This document shows positions 28,674 through 36,553 of a stretch of 36,553 bases of DNA, one piece after another. This DNA comes from Gemmataceae bacterium (GTDB lineage Bacteria > Planctomycetota > Planctomycetia > Gemmatales > Gemmataceae), in NCBI GenBank assembly GCA_019694755.1, contig JAIBBI010000040.1, positions 1-36,553 on the forward strand, in the 5' to 3' direction. The position numbers and the translations under genes are program-made. The stretch's first letter is position 1. Each line of letters starts with the position of its first letter. Below the pieces are notes generated by a model. It searched no databases. It had not been told where the DNA came from and was given only the letters and a program-made list of their open reading frames with translations.

Positions 28674-31040
28674 ATGCCGCCGACGGCGACACCACCCCCG
28701 CGAAGCCCGGCCCTCATTCGCCGGCTGTTCGCCGGCGTTCTCCTCATGGGCCTCGGCGTGTTGGCCGGGGCCCTTCCCCTGCTGCCATTCCACTCGGCCG
28801 CGTTCTGCCTCGGGCTGATTCTGATCAGCTCGGGCATCATCGACACGGTCGTGGCCCACGCGGGGCTCGCCACCCGCCGGTTGGAGTCCGCGTGGTTCGG
28901 CGGCAGCGTGTCGATCGTCGCCGGAGTGCTGCTCCTCGCGGTCGAGCGTTTCGTTTTTCCCGCCCTGGCGATGCTGCTCGGCGTCTCGTGGGTAATCGAC
29001 GGCGGCTTCCGCGTCGCCTCGGCCGTCCGCGGCGGCAAGAGTTCGCAGGGCCTCTTCGGGTTCCTCGACGGCGTGCTCAACATTCTCGTCGGCGCGGCCA
29101 TCGCCCTGCAATGGCCCGTTTCGGGCGCTTTTTCGCTCGGCATCGCCATCGCCCTGCGGCTGATCTCCGACGGCTGGACGACGCTCGTCGGCCGGTCGGG
29201 TGATGTGGCATTCAAGCCGGGCACGCCCGACTGCCACCCCGACGCCCGCCTGGGATTGCCGGCCCACGCCGAGTTCGCGACTTTGCGCCAGCAGTGGGAA
29301 TCGGAGGTCGACACGCGCGAGCGGCTCAACCGCTACTGGCGCGTGATGTTCATCATCACGTTCTTCGCGATCCACTTCGGCCGGATGAACGCCACGTGGG
29401 ATCTCGTCGGCATGATCTCGCCGGTCGGCGCGGTACTCGGCGACGTGGTTCTCGGTCTGCTCATCACCTATGTTCTTTTCGCGCCGACCCGTTGGTTCAT
29501 CCTGTGGCTGACTCGGCCGATCGAACGGCGAAGCTGGTCCAAGACCATGGCCGCCTACGACTCGGGCGGCGGCCGGGGCCCCGTCGCCCGGCTGCGGTCG
29601 GCCTGGCTGATGCGGCGACTTCGCGGGTCGTACGAGGCCGAACGCAATGCCGGCTCACTGACCGGCCTGCTCGGCTGGGGCATGCAGGTCGGCCTGCCAA
29701 TCGCCGCCGTGCTGATCGCCCTGAACCCGATCTGGGGGTTCACCTGGTACTTCAACAGCGAAAACTGGGTCACCGGCATCTGGGAGCACTGGGCGGCACA
29801 CCGCACCGACGATTGGCGACTGGAAATGGTTCGCGCCGTCCGCCGGGCCGAGCCCGACGGCGAAAGCCCCGAGTTTCACCGCCTGCGGCCGCCGGGCATC
29901 GACGGCACCGGCGATTTCGGTTTCATCGTGATCGGCGATACCGGCGAAGGCGACCCCTCGCAGCTTTGCCTGAAAGACCGGATCATCGACGTCGGCCGGC
30001 AGGACCACGTCAAGTTCCTCGTTGTCTCCTCCGACGTGATCTACCCCTCGGGCACGATGAGCGACTACGAGCCGAAGTTTTACCTGCCGTTCAAGGGGTT
30101 CACGAAGCCGATTTACGCCATCCCGGGCAATCACGACTGGTTCGATGCCGGCGAGTCGTTCATGGCCCATTTCCTGACGCCGACCTCGGCCCGGGCCGCA
30201 CTGCTCGGCCGGCGCGAAGCCGACCACGGACTCACGACCACCACCGAAAACAAGATCGACGGCATGGTCGCGGAGGCCCGGCGGTTGCAATCGTTGTACG
30301 GCATCGCCTGCGGCAAGCAGCACGCACCTTACATGGAAATCCAGACCGACCGGTTCGCGATGATCATGGTCGATACCGGCATCGTGAAGTGCATTGACGA
30401 AGACCAGCGGAAGTGGCTCAACGCGGCCCTGGCACGGGCGAAGGGGAAGTTCATCTTCGCCCTGACCGGGCATCCGTTCTATGCCGGGGGGTTCGACCAG
30501 CGCGTCGACAACCCCGGTCTTCGCGACCTCTCGGCCACGCTGATCGAGGCCGGCGCATCGATCTGCATGGCCGGCGATACGCACGACTTCGAGTATTACG
30601 ACGAGCCGACGGCGAAGCGGACCGTCCGCCACTTCGTCAACGGCGGCGGCGGCGCGTACCTGAGCATCGGTACCGCGCTCGACTGGCCGCGGACGCTCCC
30701 CGTCGAGCGGTGCGGGCATTACCCGCGGGCCGACGCGATCGTCCGGAAGTTGAACGAGGAGACGCCAACCCTGAAATGGCCGCTCTGGCGGTGGGTGCGC
30801 GACTGGCACGCCTGGCCGATGACCTCCGAAGCGATGGCCTCGGCCTTCAACTACAACCGTGCGCCGTTCTACCAGAGCTTCATGGAGGTGCGCGTCGAGC
30901 GGAGCAAAAACCAGGTCCGCCTGCTGCTGCACTCGGCCGACGGGCAATTGCGCTGGAAAGACCTTTACCGGTCCGGCCCGCCGGGCGGCTCACCGGCTCC
31001 GGACGACTTCGTCGAGTTCGTTGTCCCGATGGACGGCTGA
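28674..31040 (+). CDS. HdeD-like (DUF308) membrane domain fused to calcineurin-like phosphoesterase
   Basis: A 788-residue protein with two parts. Residues about 15-180 have six hydrophobic segments with an HdeD/DUF308 look (LISSGIIDTVVAH, LGVSWVIDGGFRVASA, LISDGWTTLVGR). Three or so further helices lie between 220 and 370. The soluble end is a metallophosphatase: IGDTGEG (D422), SSDVIYP (D454, with Ser where Gly is usual), GNHDW (N486, H487, D488), TGHPFY (H600) and GDTHD (H637). Together these supply the usual two-metal site, so it should be an active phosphoesterase or phosphatase of unknown substrate, anchored in the membrane. The orientation of the catalytic domain cannot be told. Its last 76 bases overlap the convergent plsY fusion gene. 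Confidence 0.85.
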   Translation: MPPTATPPPRSPALIRRLFAGVLLMGLGVLAGALPLLPFHSAAFCLGLILISSGIIDTVVAHAGLATRRLESAWFGGSVSIVAGVLLLAVERFVFPALAMLLGVSWVIDGGFRVASAVRGGKSSQGLFGFLDGVLNILVGAAIALQWPVSGAFSLGIAIALRLISDGWTTLVGRSGDVAFKPGTPDCHPDARLGLPAHAEFATLRQQWESEVDTRERLNRYWRVMFIITFFAIHFGRMNATWDLVGMISPVGAVLGDVVLGLLITYVLFAPTRWFILWLTRPIERRSWSKTMAAYDSGGGRGPVARLRSAWLMRRLRGSYEAERNAGSLTGLLGWGMQVGLPIAAVLIALNPIWGFTWYFNSENWVTGIWEHWAAHRTDDWRLEMVRAVRRAEPDGESPEFHRLRPPGIDGTGDFGFIVIGDTGEGDPSQLCLKDRIIDVGRQDHVKFLVVSSDVIYPSGTMSDYEPKFYLPFKGFTKPIYAIPGNHDWFDAGESFMAHFLTPTSARAALLGRREADHGLTTTTENKIDGMVAEARRLQSLYGIACGKQHAPYMEIQTDRFAMIMVDTGIVKCIDEDQRKWLNAALARAKGKFIFALTGHPFYAGGFDQRVDNPGLRDLSATLIEAGASICMAGDTHDFEYYDEPTAKRTVRHFVNGGGGAYLSIGTALDWPRTLPVERCGHYPRADAIVRKLNEETPTLKWPLWRWVRDWHAWPMTSEAMASAFNYNRAPFYQSFMEVRVERSKNQVRLLLHSADGQLRWKDLYRSGPPGGSPAPDDFVEFVVPMDG

Positions 31041-32146
31041 CCGATACAGCCGGCCAGCGCGAGCCCCGGCACCAGCAGCGCGAGCGATCCGAGGTTCAGC
31101 CCGAGGCTCACGAGGTGCCAATTGGCAAAGGCCGACCGCGCGGCCGTGCTCTCGAACCGCGTCGCACGCATGTCGCTGACCTTGCGGTTGATCGGCCAAC
31201 CGACGGCGACACACACCAGCGCAACAAAGAGCAATGCCGCCCGCCAGCGGGATGTACGACCCGGCCGGCTGATGAGCCAGCCGATGGCCGTGCCGGTGGC
31301 GATTACGCCGCAGATCGCCTGCATGAAAAAGTAACGCGGGAACATGGGGCCGATCGCCGTCCCGGCCAATCGGCTGCCGAGTTCCTCCACCGGCTCCGCA
31401 AGGCGGAACCAAGCGGGCAGCGCCTCGGCAAACTGCTTGAACGTGTCGAACAGTGACGTCGCGATCCCGAGGGAGAAGAACAGTCCACCCCCGGCCCAGA
31501 GCCCGATCGCGAGCGCATGCACGGGCGGCATCCACGAGTCGAACCGAAACAGACTGGCCAACCGCGACTCGGTGCCCGCGCGGATCCGGCCGATGTTGCT
31601 GCGGTGCCGGGCGATCACCAGCCCGGAGATGACGAGCGCGAGAAAGTTGGCCGGCGCGAATGCTTCGGGCGACATCGCCAGTTGCGATACTGCCAGCACG
31701 GTGGCCGCCACAATCGACGCAAGCGACATCGTCTGCCCGGCCAGGATCGTGCAGGCGAAACCGAGAATCGCCAGCCCGGCAGCGCCCGGCATCAGGACCG
31801 TCAGCGTGCCGCCGGCCGTGGCCACGCCCTTGCCACCGCGGAACCGGAGGAACGGCGAGAACGTGTGCCCCATCACGGCAGCGAGGCCGGTGACCGCGGG
31901 CCAGACTGTTGCCGGCGCGAGGTAGGTCGCCGCGGCCGCGGGGCCCGCGCCTTTGAGGAAGTCGAAGAAGAACACGAGGAAGCCGTACTTCTTGCCGAGC
32001 ACCCGGCCGACGTTGGTCGCGCCGACGTTGCCGCTGCCCGCCTGAAAGATGTCGACGCCTCGGGCCCGCGCCACCACCACGCCGAACGGGATCGCGCCGA
32101 CGAGATAGCCGGCGACCGCGAGCAACCAGTGCAGGGAATCGGGCAT
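30965..32146 (-). CDS. plsY: Glycerol-3-phosphate acyltransferase PlsY fused to DUF4149 domain
   Basis: A 393-residue membrane protein. Residues 1-200 are PlsY, which transfers acyl from acyl-phosphate to glycerol-3-phosphate in the first step of phospholipid synthesis. The three signature loops are intact: GSGNVGATNVGR (37-48), FRGGKGVAT (102-110) and RHRSNIGRIRAGTES (180-194). Normal PlsY is about 200 residues. Here a further domain (about 206-375) with four hydrophobic segments follows, including HALAIGLWAGGGLFF, YFFMQAICGVI and WPINRKVSDMR, which looks like DUF4149 (TMEM205-like). The start at 32146 has GAGG six bases upstream. The hydrophilic tail is encoded antisense to the end of the phosphoesterase gene. 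It follows the GT4 gene by 74 bp and may be its last cotranscribed gene. Confidence 0.9.
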   Translation of the reverse strand: MPDSLHWLLAVAGYLVGAIPFGVVVARARGVDIFQAGSGNVGATNVGRVLGKKYGFLVFFFDFLKGAGPAAAATYLAPATVWPAVTGLAAVMGHTFSPFLRFRGGKGVATAGGTLTVLMPGAAGLAILGFACTILAGQTMSLASIVAATVLAVSQLAMSPEAFAPANFLALVISGLVIARHRSNIGRIRAGTESRLASLFRFDSWMPPVHALAIGLWAGGGLFFSLGIATSLFDTFKQFAEALPAWFRLAEPVEELGSRLAGTAIGPMFPRYFFMQAICGVIATGTAIGWLISRPGRTSRWRAALLFVALVCVAVGWPINRKVSDMRATRFESTAARSAFANWHLVSLGLNLGSLALLVPGLALAGCIGQPSIGTTNSTKSSGAGEPPGGPDR

Positions 32147-32220: not shown

Positions 32221-33396
32221 CTAACCCGCCCGGCGCGCCCGCGACGCGATGACGCCGCCGAGGATTCGCTCGAACGCCTGGACGTGGTGGTCGAAGGTCC
32301 ACCGGCCGGCCGCGCCTCGTGCGGCTCGACTGATCTCCGCGCGACGATTGTCATCGAGCAGGTCGAGGATCGGGCGGGCCATTTCGCCGGGGTCGTGCGG
32401 GTCGCGGATGACATAGCCCTCGGCCGGGAGGCGGAGCAACTCGCTCGCGCCGTTGTTGGTCGTGGTGACCACCGGCAGACCGCAGGCCAGCGCCTCGAGG
32501 ACGACCAGCGAGCACGGATCGTAGAAGGTCGGGTGAATGAAGAAGTCGGCGGAGTAGAACACACGCCGCACGTCGGCACAGTGCCCGACGAAGCGGACCC
32601 GGTCGGCCACGCCGAGCCGATGGGCCAGCCGGCGCCAGGGCCGGGTCTGCGGGCTGCCCGCGACGACGAGCCGGAATTTCGATTCCTTCGGGATCAGCGG
32701 CAGGCATCGCAGGAGCGGTTCGAGCCCCTTGAGCCGGTAGTTCATGGCCACCACCGCGCCGACGATGTCGTCGGCCGCCAGGTCCCACGCCTTGCGGTTG
32801 GCGACACGCACGGCCGGGCGGTCGTGCTCGGGGAACCGCGACGGGTCGATGGCGTTGTGAATCACCGGGACGGTGGCCGGGTCGACGCCGTAGTACTTCC
32901 GCGCGTGCTCGCGCACGAGCGCGGAGTTGGCCACGAACAGCGGGCGGTCCGGCGCGGTGAGCAGGCGGCGCTCCATGCGCGAGTACGACCAGTTGGCCGA
33001 CTCGACGTATTGCGCCATCCGGGCGATGGTCCGCGGGAATCCGGGCTGGTGCTTCAGGAGGTTATGCGCGGCCGTCGCCACGTGCAGGCCGCCGAGCGGG
33101 TAGTACACGTCGGTGCCGAAGAGCTTGTCGAAGCTGATGGAGACTTCCGGCCGGTCGACGGCGAGCGCCTGCCGGAGCGTCGCGCTGAATTTCCAGGGCC
33201 GGCCGGCCCGCGGACCGCGCGACTTGCGGAGCGGGTGAATCACCACGTCGGCCGGCAGCGCGGTCGGGTCCCACCGGGCGGCGTACAGGTGCAACTCGTG
33301 CCCCGCGGCCGACAGTCGCCGGACGAGGTCGGCGACGTACATCTCCGCGCCGCCCCGCCGGGGTAGAACATTCTCGTGACAAACCGCGATCTGCAT
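32221..33396 (-). CDS. Family 4 glycosyltransferase, WaaG-like
   Basis: A 391-residue GT-B glycosyltransferase. The N-terminus MQIAVCHENVLPRRGGAEMYVADL resembles WaaG (RfaG), the LPS core glucosyltransferase, with its R-x-GGAE loop. The C-terminal donor site has HPTFYDPCSLVVLEALACG with the EX7E-type spacing and GLPVVTTTNNGASELL. Its position beside WaaP-like kinases and a GT9 enzyme supports a role in LPS core assembly at the cytoplasmic face; the sugar donor is not known. The start at 33396 is the natural family N-terminus, with a weak AAGGGA upstream. A longer frame reaching 33681 runs into the kinase gene and is rejected. It lies 23 bp after that kinase's stop. Confidence 0.92.
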   Translation of the reverse strand: MQIAVCHENVLPRRGGAEMYVADLVRRLSAAGHELHLYAARWDPTALPADVVIHPLRKSRGPRAGRPWKFSATLRQALAVDRPEVSISFDKLFGTDVYYPLGGLHVATAAHNLLKHQPGFPRTIARMAQYVESANWSYSRMERRLLTAPDRPLFVANSALVREHARKYYGVDPATVPVIHNAIDPSRFPEHDRPAVRVANRKAWDLAADDIVGAVVAMNYRLKGLEPLLRCLPLIPKESKFRLVVAGSPQTRPWRRLAHRLGVADRVRFVGHCADVRRVFYSADFFIHPTFYDPCSLVVLEALACGLPVVTTTNNGASELLRLPAEGYVIRDPHDPGEMARPILDLLDDNRRAEISRAARGAAGRWTFDHHVQAFERILGGVIASRARRAG

Positions 33397-33419
33397 CGCG
33401 CCACTGTTCCCTTCAATAG

Positions 33420-34232
33420 CTACGCCGCGTGCTGCGACGTGTTGTGATCCCGGTAGTTGTTCCAACGGACGATGACGAACTTCCGCCACCAGCCCTGAAG
33501 CCCGCGATTCCGGCCCGGGCCCGCGTACAGCCGCCAGAAGCGCACGCGGTCGCGGGCCGTCACCCCGGGCACTTCGGACGAGAACGCGAGCTGGGCCAGA
33601 TCCTTCAGCATCCACCACGGCCCGGTGATCGGGTGATGGCCGAGCCGGTGCAGATCGATCATCGCAATCCGGCCGCGCCACTGCTCGGGCGGCACGCTCG
33701 CATACACCGTCGGCGCGAAGAAGTGGCAGAGATACAGGTCTTTGTGATAGTGGCTGCGGTCGTGCAGGTTCCTGGCGAGTCGAGCCAGCTCCGCCACGGC
33801 CCCACGCTTCCAGGCGAGGAAGCGGTCCGCGTCGAGCGTCTCGTACGCCAGCGGAACGAGCTCGTGAAGGGCCAGTTGATCGGTCAGCTCTTCGACCGCC
33901 AGGAAGCCGGCGAGTCGCGGCATCCGGGTGCCGACGGCCACGGGCCGCGGCACGGCGAAGCCGCAGCTCGCCGCCCAGGTGAGGTTGCGATACTCCTGCC
34001 AGGCGGACGACCAGCGCCGCGATCGCGTAACGGCGGCGATGAGGCTGCGCCAGCGCGATTCGACGTAGTGCCGCTTGAGGTACACGGTCGGGCCGCCGGG
34101 CAGCGCCCAGCGTGCGATCGACCGGCCCTGTTTCGCGTGCCGACGGTCGCCGACGTCGGCCGCCATGACCATTTCCGGGTCGGCGGGTGCGGCGGCCTTC
34201 CAGTCTTCGTGAGCGCGGACGCGCCAGCTCAT
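33420..34232 (-). CDS. Lipopolysaccharide kinase (WaaP/InaA/Kdo-kinase family)
   Basis: A 270-residue member of the LPS-kinase family, a eukaryotic-kinase-like fold that phosphorylates core heptose or Kdo with ATP. The ATP-lysine is K53 in TVYLKRHY, the catalytic loop is HYHKDLYLCHFF with D165, and the metal-binding aspartate is D193 in AMIDLHRLG. The hallmark HxKDLY sequence matches E. coli WaaP, and the length is similar. The ATG at 34232 overlaps the stop of the upstream double-kinase gene (ATGA), so the two are translationally coupled. It appears fully active. The phosphorylated sugar position cannot be inferred. Confidence 0.92.
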   Translation of the reverse strand: MSWRVRAHEDWKAAAPADPEMVMAADVGDRRHAKQGRSIARWALPGGPTVYLKRHYVESRWRSLIAAVTRSRRWSSAWQEYRNLTWAASCGFAVPRPVAVGTRMPRLAGFLAVEELTDQLALHELVPLAYETLDADRFLAWKRGAVAELARLARNLHDRSHYHKDLYLCHFFAPTVYASVPPEQWRGRIAMIDLHRLGHHPITGPWWMLKDLAQLAFSSEVPGVTARDRVRFWRLYAGPGRNRGLQGWWRKFVIVRWNNYRDHNTSQHAA

Positions 34233-35734
34233 GCCGCCCTCCGCTGCTCGCGGGGTGCCGACTCGTCGGCAGATGGCATCGGCATCGGCTGGTTATACCC
34301 TTGTGCCACGCACTGGCGATCCTCGTGGCGCGTCAGGCCGAGTTCACGCAACACGCGAATGAACTCAGCCGCGGCCTGACCGGGCCGGCCGGCTCCGAGT
34401 CGCGGGCCGACGGACAAGGCGATCCGCGGACGGTCGCGCTCCAGGACGATTAACTGATCGCCACGCACGCCGGCCGAGCCGGCATCGTGACAGCCGCGGA
34501 GCAACCGGCCGATGTCGCGCAAGACGGCCGCCCGACCGGGGCGATCGACGGCGAGCCATCTCTTGGCCGCGGTCCACGGTCCGGGAATCTTCGTGAGCAG
34601 GAAGCCGCCGCCATCGGCCCGACCGCCGAACGCCAGCACCGGCGCGACCGGGACCTTGTGCCGCATCAGGCGGAACGCCCAGCCGGCCAGTTGGATCCCC
34701 CGCGACTGCAAGGGCCGACCGCTGACCCGGGCCCAAACCTGTCGCAGCCATGATGCATTCGGAAACCGGTGCAGAACGCCGGCCCGGCCGACGGAGGAAC
34801 ACGTGTCAGCCGCGACCCGGTCGTGTGCCGCGGTGAGCAGCCAGGCCGGCACGTTGCCCGCGATCTGGCCGTGGTACTCGCGGGTAACGCACAGTGCCTC
34901 GCCGGCCAGCCAGCGCAGCCGGGGCGAGTGCGCGGGCTGGAGTTGTTCGCGGATCGAGCGTCGCCGCCCGAGTCCGATCGCGAGTTGGAGAATACGCCGG
35001 GCCAGCGGTGCGGCCGGACCCCAGAAGCCCAATTCCCCCATCCACGCTTTCAGCACGGCCATTCGGTCCCGCGGTGAAGCGAGTCGCGGCGCGGCCGACG
35101 CATGCAATCCCGCCAGCGCGGCGAGACAACGATCCGTGTCCAGCGTTGGTCGCCGGGTCGCCCGCGGCCAATCGAGCAGCACGACCGTGCCGCACTTCCG
35201 CACGCACACATGCTTGGCCGAAAGGTCCGGCGCGTCGAAGCCCGCCCGATGAACGCGGGCGATCGCTTCGCCGAGCGACTTGCGCATCCGCCAGCGGGCG
35301 AAGCCATTCATCCGGCCCGGCCGCAACGCCGACCGCAGGTCCCGGCCACGCACCCGGCGAAGAAGTAGAAACTCCCGGCCCTGCTCGTCGGCCCCATGAG
35401 CCACGACGCGCGGCACCGGCACGCCGGCCCGGCGAAGTTCGCGAAGCGTCTCGGCTTCGCGGGCCGACAGCGAGATCGCGCCGAACCCGTCCCACCAGTT
35501 GTGCAACCGGATCGACCGGCTGACGCGATGCTCGACCTTGAGGAAGAATCGCTGCCGGCCCAGTTCTACGGCACGCACGTGCCGGTCGCGGTGCCCGCTG
35601 ACGATGTCGCCCGGCAGGTCGATGAACTCTTCCGGCCGGGTTAAGCCCTGCCGCCGCATCCAATCCTGCCAGCGCAGTGAAACTGTCAGGTTCAAGGGCC
35701 CGGCCGATGTTCGCGTGCGTTCCTTAACCGACAC
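34229..35734 (-). CDS. Double LPS-kinase-like protein: kinase plus degenerate second kinase
   Basis: A 501-residue protein, about twice the family's length. The first half (about 40-230) is a WaaP/Kdo-kinase-like domain with ATP-lysine K66 (RFFLKVEH), a catalytic loop HRAGFDAPDLSAKHV with D170, and D188 in VVLLDWPRA. The second half (about 300-465) repeats the outline (VPVAPVLAFGG, GFLLTKIPGP, LGRLLRGCHDAG-type helix IGRLLRGCHDAG) but lacks the lysine, has GVRGDQLIV for the loop and LSVGPRL where the metal aspartate belongs, so it is probably a pseudokinase. The GTG at 35734 is chosen because GGGAGG lies six bases upstream; a start at 35776 would extend further into the GT9 gene. It overlaps GT9 by 11 bases and the next kinase by four. 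Confidence 0.85.
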   Translation of the reverse strand: MSVKERTRTSAGPLNLTVSLRWQDWMRRQGLTRPEEFIDLPGDIVSGHRDRHVRAVELGRQRFFLKVEHRVSRSIRLHNWWDGFGAISLSAREAETLRELRRAGVPVPRVVAHGADEQGREFLLLRRVRGRDLRSALRPGRMNGFARWRMRKSLGEAIARVHRAGFDAPDLSAKHVCVRKCGTVVLLDWPRATRRPTLDTDRCLAALAGLHASAAPRLASPRDRMAVLKAWMGELGFWGPAAPLARRILQLAIGLGRRRSIREQLQPAHSPRLRWLAGEALCVTREYHGQIAGNVPAWLLTAAHDRVAADTCSSVGRAGVLHRFPNASWLRQVWARVSGRPLQSRGIQLAGWAFRLMRHKVPVAPVLAFGGRADGGGFLLTKIPGPWTAAKRWLAVDRPGRAAVLRDIGRLLRGCHDAGSAGVRGDQLIVLERDRPRIALSVGPRLGAGRPGQAAAEFIRVLRELGLTRHEDRQCVAQGYNQPMPMPSADESAPREQRRAA

Positions 35735-36553
35735 GGCGGGCCTCCCGGTGTCCGGAGAGCAGGCGAATCGACGCACGGAAGGCGGAGTCCGGCGACAGGC
35801 CGGTCATGCACTTGTGATCGAGCGGGCAGACCCGCTTCTGGCACGGGCCGCAATCGACCTCTTCCTGCAGGTGAATCGCGCCGGGGTGATACGTCTCGGT
35901 CCATCCGATGTGCGTCGGACCGAAGAGAGTCACGACGGGCCGGGCGAACGCCGCCGCGAAGTGCCGCGGCCCCGAGTCGGTCGTCACCAGCAGGTCGCTG
36001 CGGCGGACAATCGCCTTCGTCAGCCCGATCGAGAGCTTTTCGTCGCTCAGCGAATGCACGTCGCGGTGCCCGGCCTGCTCCACGATGTCGCGGGCCAGTC
36101 CCCGCTCGCTCGGTCCGCACAACACGAGCACGCCCGCGCCGCGTTCCTCGGCCAGTCGCCGGCCCAACTCGGCAAACGACTTCGTCGGCCAGTGCTTGGC
36201 CGCGCCGTAGGCCGCGCCGGGATTCAGGGCGATCACCTCGGGATACCGGGCCAGGCCGAACTTCTGCCAGACTTCCTCGGCCGCCGCCTCATCGACTTTG
36301 TTCGTGAACAGTCGCATGCGCCGGCCGGGGACCGCCCCGAGTTCCGCGACCAGCCGGTTGTACGCGTCCAGAATTGGGGCGATGGCGATCCGCCCGTTGG
36401 TGTCCCGCAGGGGCGGCATCGCGTCGGTCAGCAGCACCGATCGGCCGTGCCGGGCGTACCCGAGTCGCCGGGGAATGCCCGCAAACCGCGCGATGAACGC
36501 CGAGCGGAACGAGTTGGGGAAGAGTACCGCGACATCGCACCCGGCCGCACGAA
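35724..36553 (-). CDS. Family 9 glycosyltransferase (LPS heptosyltransferase), 5'-truncated
   Basis: The frame is open to the right edge, so the N-terminus lies beyond the window; about 276 residues are visible. Upstream residues LFPNSFRSAFIARFAGIPRR are typical of heptosyltransferase II, and the donor site follows: IALNPGAAYGAAKHWPTKSF, VLCGPSERGLA, LVTTDSGPRHFAAAFARPVV and TLFGPTHIGWTETYHP. A cysteine cluster near the end (CGPCQKRVCPLDHKC) is also characteristic of WaaF/WaaC-type proteins. The enzyme should add a heptose, or another sugar, to the LPS core from an ADP-sugar. It is the first visible gene of the operon continuing to two kinases and a WaaG-like enzyme. Whether the sugar is heptose is unproven, since no heptose synthesis gene is in view. 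Confidence 0.92.
   Translation of the reverse strand, partial: RAAGCDVAVLFPNSFRSAFIARFAGIPRRLGYARHGRSVLLTDAMPPLRDTNGRIAIAPILDAYNRLVAELGAVPGRRMRLFTNKVDEAAAEEVWQKFGLARYPEVIALNPGAAYGAAKHWPTKSFAELGRRLAEERGAGVLVLCGPSERGLARDIVEQAGHRDVHSLSDEKLSIGLTKAIVRRSDLLVTTDSGPRHFAAAFARPVVTLFGPTHIGWTETYHPGAIHLQEEVDCGPCQKRVCPLDHKCMTGLSPDSAFRASIRLLSGHREARRVG

Follow-up and report, generated by a model that had tools for sequence, protein, structure and literature searches.

A PlsY acyltransferase fused in frame to a DUF4149 membrane domain in one planctomycete family, with an internal start apparently kept in most of its members

In the present study, we analysed a 36,553-nucleotide stretch of DNA from a member of the Gemmataceae (hereafter, the window) and found that it encodes a fusion between PlsY, a glycerol-3-phosphate acyltransferase, and a membrane domain of the DUF4149 family. 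The fusion is real and is built of known parts; the literature searched holds no description of it, and none was known to the earlier note on this DNA, made from the sequence alone. Its most interesting aspect is the start codon that most relatives of the gene appear to retain inside the joined frame. We favour, as reasonably probable, an origin by loss of the plsY stop codon, with the internal start of the second gene kept in most members of the family and decayed in the species from which the window comes.

The fusion protein and its two halves

The fusion gene lies on the minus strand of the window as one stop-free frame, which runs from an ATG at 32146 to a stop codon at 30965-30967 and encodes 393 amino acids (Table 1). 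The earlier note had placed a single-frame fusion correctly at positions 30965-32146, leaving the strand unstated, and its two proposed domains are both recognised in the one protein by their profiles, each above the respective cut-off.

Table 1. Features of the plsY-DUF4149 locus and its conserved neighbours in the window
Feature	Residues	Position	Strand	Basis
plsY-DUF4149 fusion gene	393 aa plus stop	30965..32146	-	Open frame, Pfam, 70 homologous fusions
PlsY half, glycerol-3-phosphate acyltransferase	1-197	31556..32146	-	Pfam, NCBIfam, solved-structure alignment
PlsY motif 1, GSGNVGATNVGR	37-48	32003..32038	-	Sequence; invariance in fusions
PlsY motif 2, GHTFSPFLRFRGGKGVAT	93-110	31817..31870	-	Sequence; invariance in fusions
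PlsY motif 3, RHRSNIGRIRAGTE	180-193	31568..31609	-	Sequence; invariance in fusions
Linker; in most relatives holds an internal ATG and a Shine-Dalgarno-like site	194-209	31520..31567	-	
In-frame ATG of the window copy, 13 codons past E193, without a Shine-Dalgarno-like site	M206	31529..31531	-	
DUF4149 half, four hydrophobic segments	206-368	31043..31531	-	
GT4 glycosyltransferase immediately upstream (open frame; true start probably further in), conserved neighbour		32221..33681	-	
Kdo/WaaP-type lipopolysaccharide kinase, conserved neighbour		33420..34232	-	
Second Kdo/WaaP-type kinase, conserved neighbour		34229..35776	-	

In most bacteria, PlsY catalyses the committed step of phospholipid synthesis; it is also an antibacterial target, and its C-terminus is cytoplasmic. 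In the window protein, residues 13-188 match the Pfam family PF02660 with 156.1 bits (E 1e-45; cut-off 24.1), the NCBIfam model TIGR00023 scores 155.6 bits, above its cut-off of 137.2, and a search against solved structures aligned the Aquifex PlsY structure 5xj5 to residues 9-199 (E 1e-38). The three active-site motifs, previously reported to be intact, are so. The residues of Aquifex PlsY tested by mutation for binding of glycerol-3-phosphate or acyl-phosphate, S35, R45, K104, S142, H177 and N180 (PMC5700162), correspond in the solved-structure alignment to S38, R48, K106, S144, H181 and N184, all of which are invariant in 70/70 fusions. The first half thereby shares with the characterised enzyme (5xj5, PMC5700162) the seven-helix core, the three motifs and every mutated active-site residue; unlike the free enzyme of about 200 residues, however, it lacks a stop codon of its own and runs on into DUF4149. 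Given that the active-site residues are invariant, that the fusion gene is the sole PF02660 match in the window's genome, and that the genome also encodes PlsX, the partner that makes the acyl-phosphate donor (PF02504, 317 bits, G000:C247), the natural reading is that the gene would encode an active PlsY.

The second half matches PF13664 (DUF4149) at residues 212-317, barely above the cut-off (25.9 bits, E 1e-5, cut-off 24.6). Across the family, 29 of 29 scanned fusions, each of a different genus, match both PF02660 and PF13664, with a best DUF4149 E of 9e-10. The assignment to DUF4149 suggested earlier therefore holds, and the reservation that such a match might be missing falls away. The four hydrophobic segments described for this half are seen in the family mean, and together with the W-x-G and F-x3-H-x2-S motifs they are features in common with DUF4149 proteins at large; the conserved positions are H210, W217, G262, F269, R327, F340, H344 and S347. 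Elsewhere, DUF4149 is usually a free protein of ~160-250 residues, whereas here it is tethered to an enzyme. The short linker is predicted to lead straight into the first helix of DUF4149. Of the loops of this half, the second is the most positively charged, and the distribution of loop charge fits a cytoplasmic N- and C-terminus, be the domain tethered or free.

Structure prediction from six sequences was too poor for use or for a fold search (mean pLDDT 50), and sequence search found no solved structure related to the DUF4149 half. A common H-x6-W-x-G pattern suggested HemJ (PF03653) and the anthrone-oxygenase-like proteins (PF08592) as candidate relatives of DUF4149, an idea that was set aside: in a scan of 59 genomes, HemJ had no match and PF08592 was too rare to be aligned. 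Human TMEM205 has been assigned to DUF4149 (PMC9333335), and its link to the present protein is this shared assignment, nothing further. We note that the window's genome also encodes a second, free DUF4149-like protein, L004 (G000:C94:4885-5145), which scores below the family cut-off.

Distribution and origin of the fusion

A match was obtained in 82 of the 95 genomes of the window's family, which gene content (DUF1501 among others) would place as Gemmataceae-like within the Planctomycetota, and 70 full-length fusions, representing 32 genera of that family, were extracted. The distance from E193, at the end of the last PlsY motif, to H210, the first conserved histidine of DUF4149, is 17 residues in nearly all of them (range 16-18), and this constant linker length points to a single joining event. 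The taxonomic range of the fusion, a matter raised in the earlier note, is confined to the family within the class and phylum samples: among 397 genomes of the class, every full-length match fell within the family, and no fusion was seen in the other families of a phylum-wide sample, where DUF4149 is free and mostly of 160-250 residues by open frame. A contig scan, which reports close matches alone and may omit records near the window, gave only free PlsY relatives. A different C-terminal extension, of ~350-400 residues and comprising a membrane segment and then perhaps a beta-propeller, was observed in PlsY of family f3 (L051:1603-3342, L057:510-2317 and L058:560-2360); two of these were scanned, and Pfam gave no match to the extension in either.

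The same survey bears on whether a sequencing or assembly error might have merged two genes in the window's genome; the earlier note had named such an error, at about 31530-31570, as a possible refutation. That genome consists of 335 contigs and is probably metagenome-derived, but the fusion recurs, its linker constant, in 70 independent genomes, several of which are single-contig assemblies, and the occurrence of homologous fusions in 32 genera excludes a local sequencing error, so that the probability of such an artefact is negligible. We also considered and rejected a frameshift that would release free PlsY, there being no conserved out-of-frame stop codon at the junction.

The gene belongs to an operon of conserved order, i.e., two Kdo/WaaP-type kinases, a GT4 glycosyltransferase, PlsY and DUF4149. 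In a sister family of the same order, plsY and the DUF4149 gene are separate, adjacent and co-directional in 4 of the 7 genomes examined. Since the two are separate operon neighbours there, the fusion probably arose through stop-codon loss: in the ancestor of the family, the two genes would have stood side by side in an operon of glycolipid type (Kdo kinases, GT4, plsY, DUF4149) and been joined once plsY lost its stop codon, which would also explain the constant in-frame junction. One genome (G027) has an in-frame TAA (TAAGGA) that parts the two halves just before the DUF4149 ATG, the stop codon being still, or again, in place. With plsY deprived of its own stop, every PlsY made would carry DUF4149, the C-terminus of the enzyme leading through a short linker into a four-helix membrane domain. 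At its 3' end, the fusion gene overlaps by 76 bases (30965-31040) with that of a metallophosphatase gene on the plus strand, and positions 28674-31040 of the window encode a membrane protein in which DUF308-like repeats are linked to a calcineurin-type phosphatase domain.

An internal start at the junction

An in-frame ATG is located 8-10 codons past E193 in 43 of the 70 fusions, at the position where the free DUF4149 proteins of the sister family begin. In 37 of these 43, it is preceded by a Shine-Dalgarno-like motif (scored as GGAG, AGGA or GAGG, 5-18 bases upstream of the ATG), against 16.1 expected from synonymous-codon shuffles. The same motif precedes 7% of the other in-frame ATGs of these genes and is present in 5 of the 27 fusions without the internal ATG, one of which has GTG in its place. 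When each genus is represented by one sequence, the motif occurs in 16 of 22 against 8.8 expected, a count matched by 4 of 5000 synonymous shuffles, and pairing with the 16S tail has a mean energy of -6.1 kcal/mol against -4.1 expected, a value reached in none of 5000 shuffles. A set of 135 control ATGs displays no excess (8 motifs observed, 6.7 expected). The 16S tail itself carries the anti-Shine-Dalgarno sequence GGATCACCTCCTTT in 11 of the 11 genomes checked. The site thus exceeds what codon constraint would produce, which is good evidence for selection on the internal start across most of the family. With a former start codon and ribosome-binding site kept in frame, free DUF4149 may also be made, and there is moderate evidence that most members make it beside the fusion.

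It is possible, if doubtful, that the gene is a plain fusion yielding one protein, with the internal ATG and its upstream site being unused remnants or reflecting amino-acid requirements of the linker. The frame is conserved in members that have no internal ATG, including that of the window, as such a fusion would have it, and a tree-based paired test of the ATG against the Shine-Dalgarno site, although it points the expected way (3.6 pairs against 0.2), is not significant, the pairs being too few (median p 0.25). Amino-acid requirements, however, do not readily account for an excess over synonymous shuffles in independent genera, nor for a motif that is encoded through differing residues (LKD, LED, IGD, IGE, FQEN and LSEG). 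Likewise, the codons for the dipeptide KD are AAAGAT in the clade that lacks the ATG and AAGGAT or AAGGAC in members that have it, although base composition may differ as well. Remnants preserved by descent are also hard to reconcile with synonymous sites that are nearly saturated between genera (0.41 identical against 0.37 expected without shared ancestry), so that shared ancestry explains little of the motif excess.

A start that is kept for use, the reading we prefer, need not be as old as the fusion. A deep clade of 11 fusions has neither the ATG nor the motif, and the rooting of the tree is unsure; the internal start could thus be a later gain instead of a leftover. At the PlsY start of the fusion gene, the motif is found in 4 of 20, which indicates that these bacteria often start without a Shine-Dalgarno motif. 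In the window copy, the only ATG is at +13 codons and the Shine-Dalgarno-like signal is absent; its internal start has apparently been lost, and the fusion alone is expected in that species.

Internal in-frame starts that give rise to a second, shorter protein have been described for archaeal Cas11b (PMC11899642) and the endolysin CTP1L (PMC4777826), both of which resemble the present case in that, at a domain border, an in-frame ATG follows a Shine-Dalgarno-like site. Unlike in those systems, the internal site of the fusion would be where a once separate gene began, and it is known here from sequence conservation alone. We see an even chance that the gene is a two-product gene family-wide, with PlsY obligatorily tethered and the embedded former gene start supplying free DUF4149.

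DUF4149 without PlsY

One genus of the family (g32) holds the DUF4149 half only, in all six of its genomes (G031 and G112-G116). It sits deep among the fusions on the DUF4149 tree, which indicates that the fused gene came first and PlsY was lost later. The DUF4149 of G112 starts at the internal ATG, directly behind an in-frame, decayed PlsY tail, AGMEHRVGDVSM. No match to PlsX or PlsB (TIGR03703) was found in this genus; G047 and G052 are also without a PlsX, PlsY or PlsB match. The DUF4149 gene of g32 is located in the kinase-GT4 operon in 4 of 6 genomes, the fetched stretch being too short in the other 2, and two genomes of the sister family have the arrangement KdoK1-GT4-DUF4149 without PlsY. 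For 15 free DUF4149 genes from other families of the phylum, no PlsY, GT4 or kinase gene was found within ~4 kb, as far as the contig ends allowed. One genus has, in two genomes, a free DUF4149 gene flanked on both sides by peroxiredoxin-type genes (L131:3391-5115 and L134:3494-5162), hinting at a redox role for DUF4149 in that genus.

These observations bear on the reading that DUF4149 serves PlsY as a functional subunit or a regulator, handling, e.g., lysophosphatidic acid or acyl-phosphate, so that the fusion would report a shared function. The two genes are neighbours in the sister family and permanently fused across the whole of the present one, as a subunit would be. Yet DUF4149 persists in genomes that lack both PlsX and PlsY, is not found near PlsY elsewhere in the phylum and stands beside peroxiredoxin genes in one genus, and we regard this role as unlikely. 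Because DUF4149 is kept where PlsY is missing and lies apart from it in the rest of the phylum, it can work without PlsY. Of the earlier proposal that the fusion provides a functional clue to DUF4149, the genuine fusion stands, but the clue is weak for these same reasons.

Conclusions

Most likely, DUF4149 does a separable membrane task, and its tether to PlsY would provide co-location or a fixed dosage. In the simplest model, two membrane proteins of one operon are held together, or in fixed proportion, by the fusion, and an extra pool of free DUF4149 is present where the internal start is kept: in most members, the old DUF4149 start and ribosome-binding site inside the joined frame would yield the free protein too, whereas in the window's species, with the internal start decayed, only the fusion would be made.

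A family that makes PlsY only as a fusion offers a natural way into the study of the uncharacterised DUF4149/TMEM205 proteins. At the same time, it cautions against reading function straight from a fusion, since DUF4149 outlives both PlsX and PlsY in one genus. The genomes compared here form a series, from separate genes through fusions with and without the internal start to loss of the enzyme half, which bears on how gene fusions retain or lose independent expression of their second part. If our reading is true, the gene would represent a frozen intermediate of gene fusion, in which operon neighbours have become one protein while independent dosage is kept, and it would also show how the tail survives later deletion of the enzyme half.
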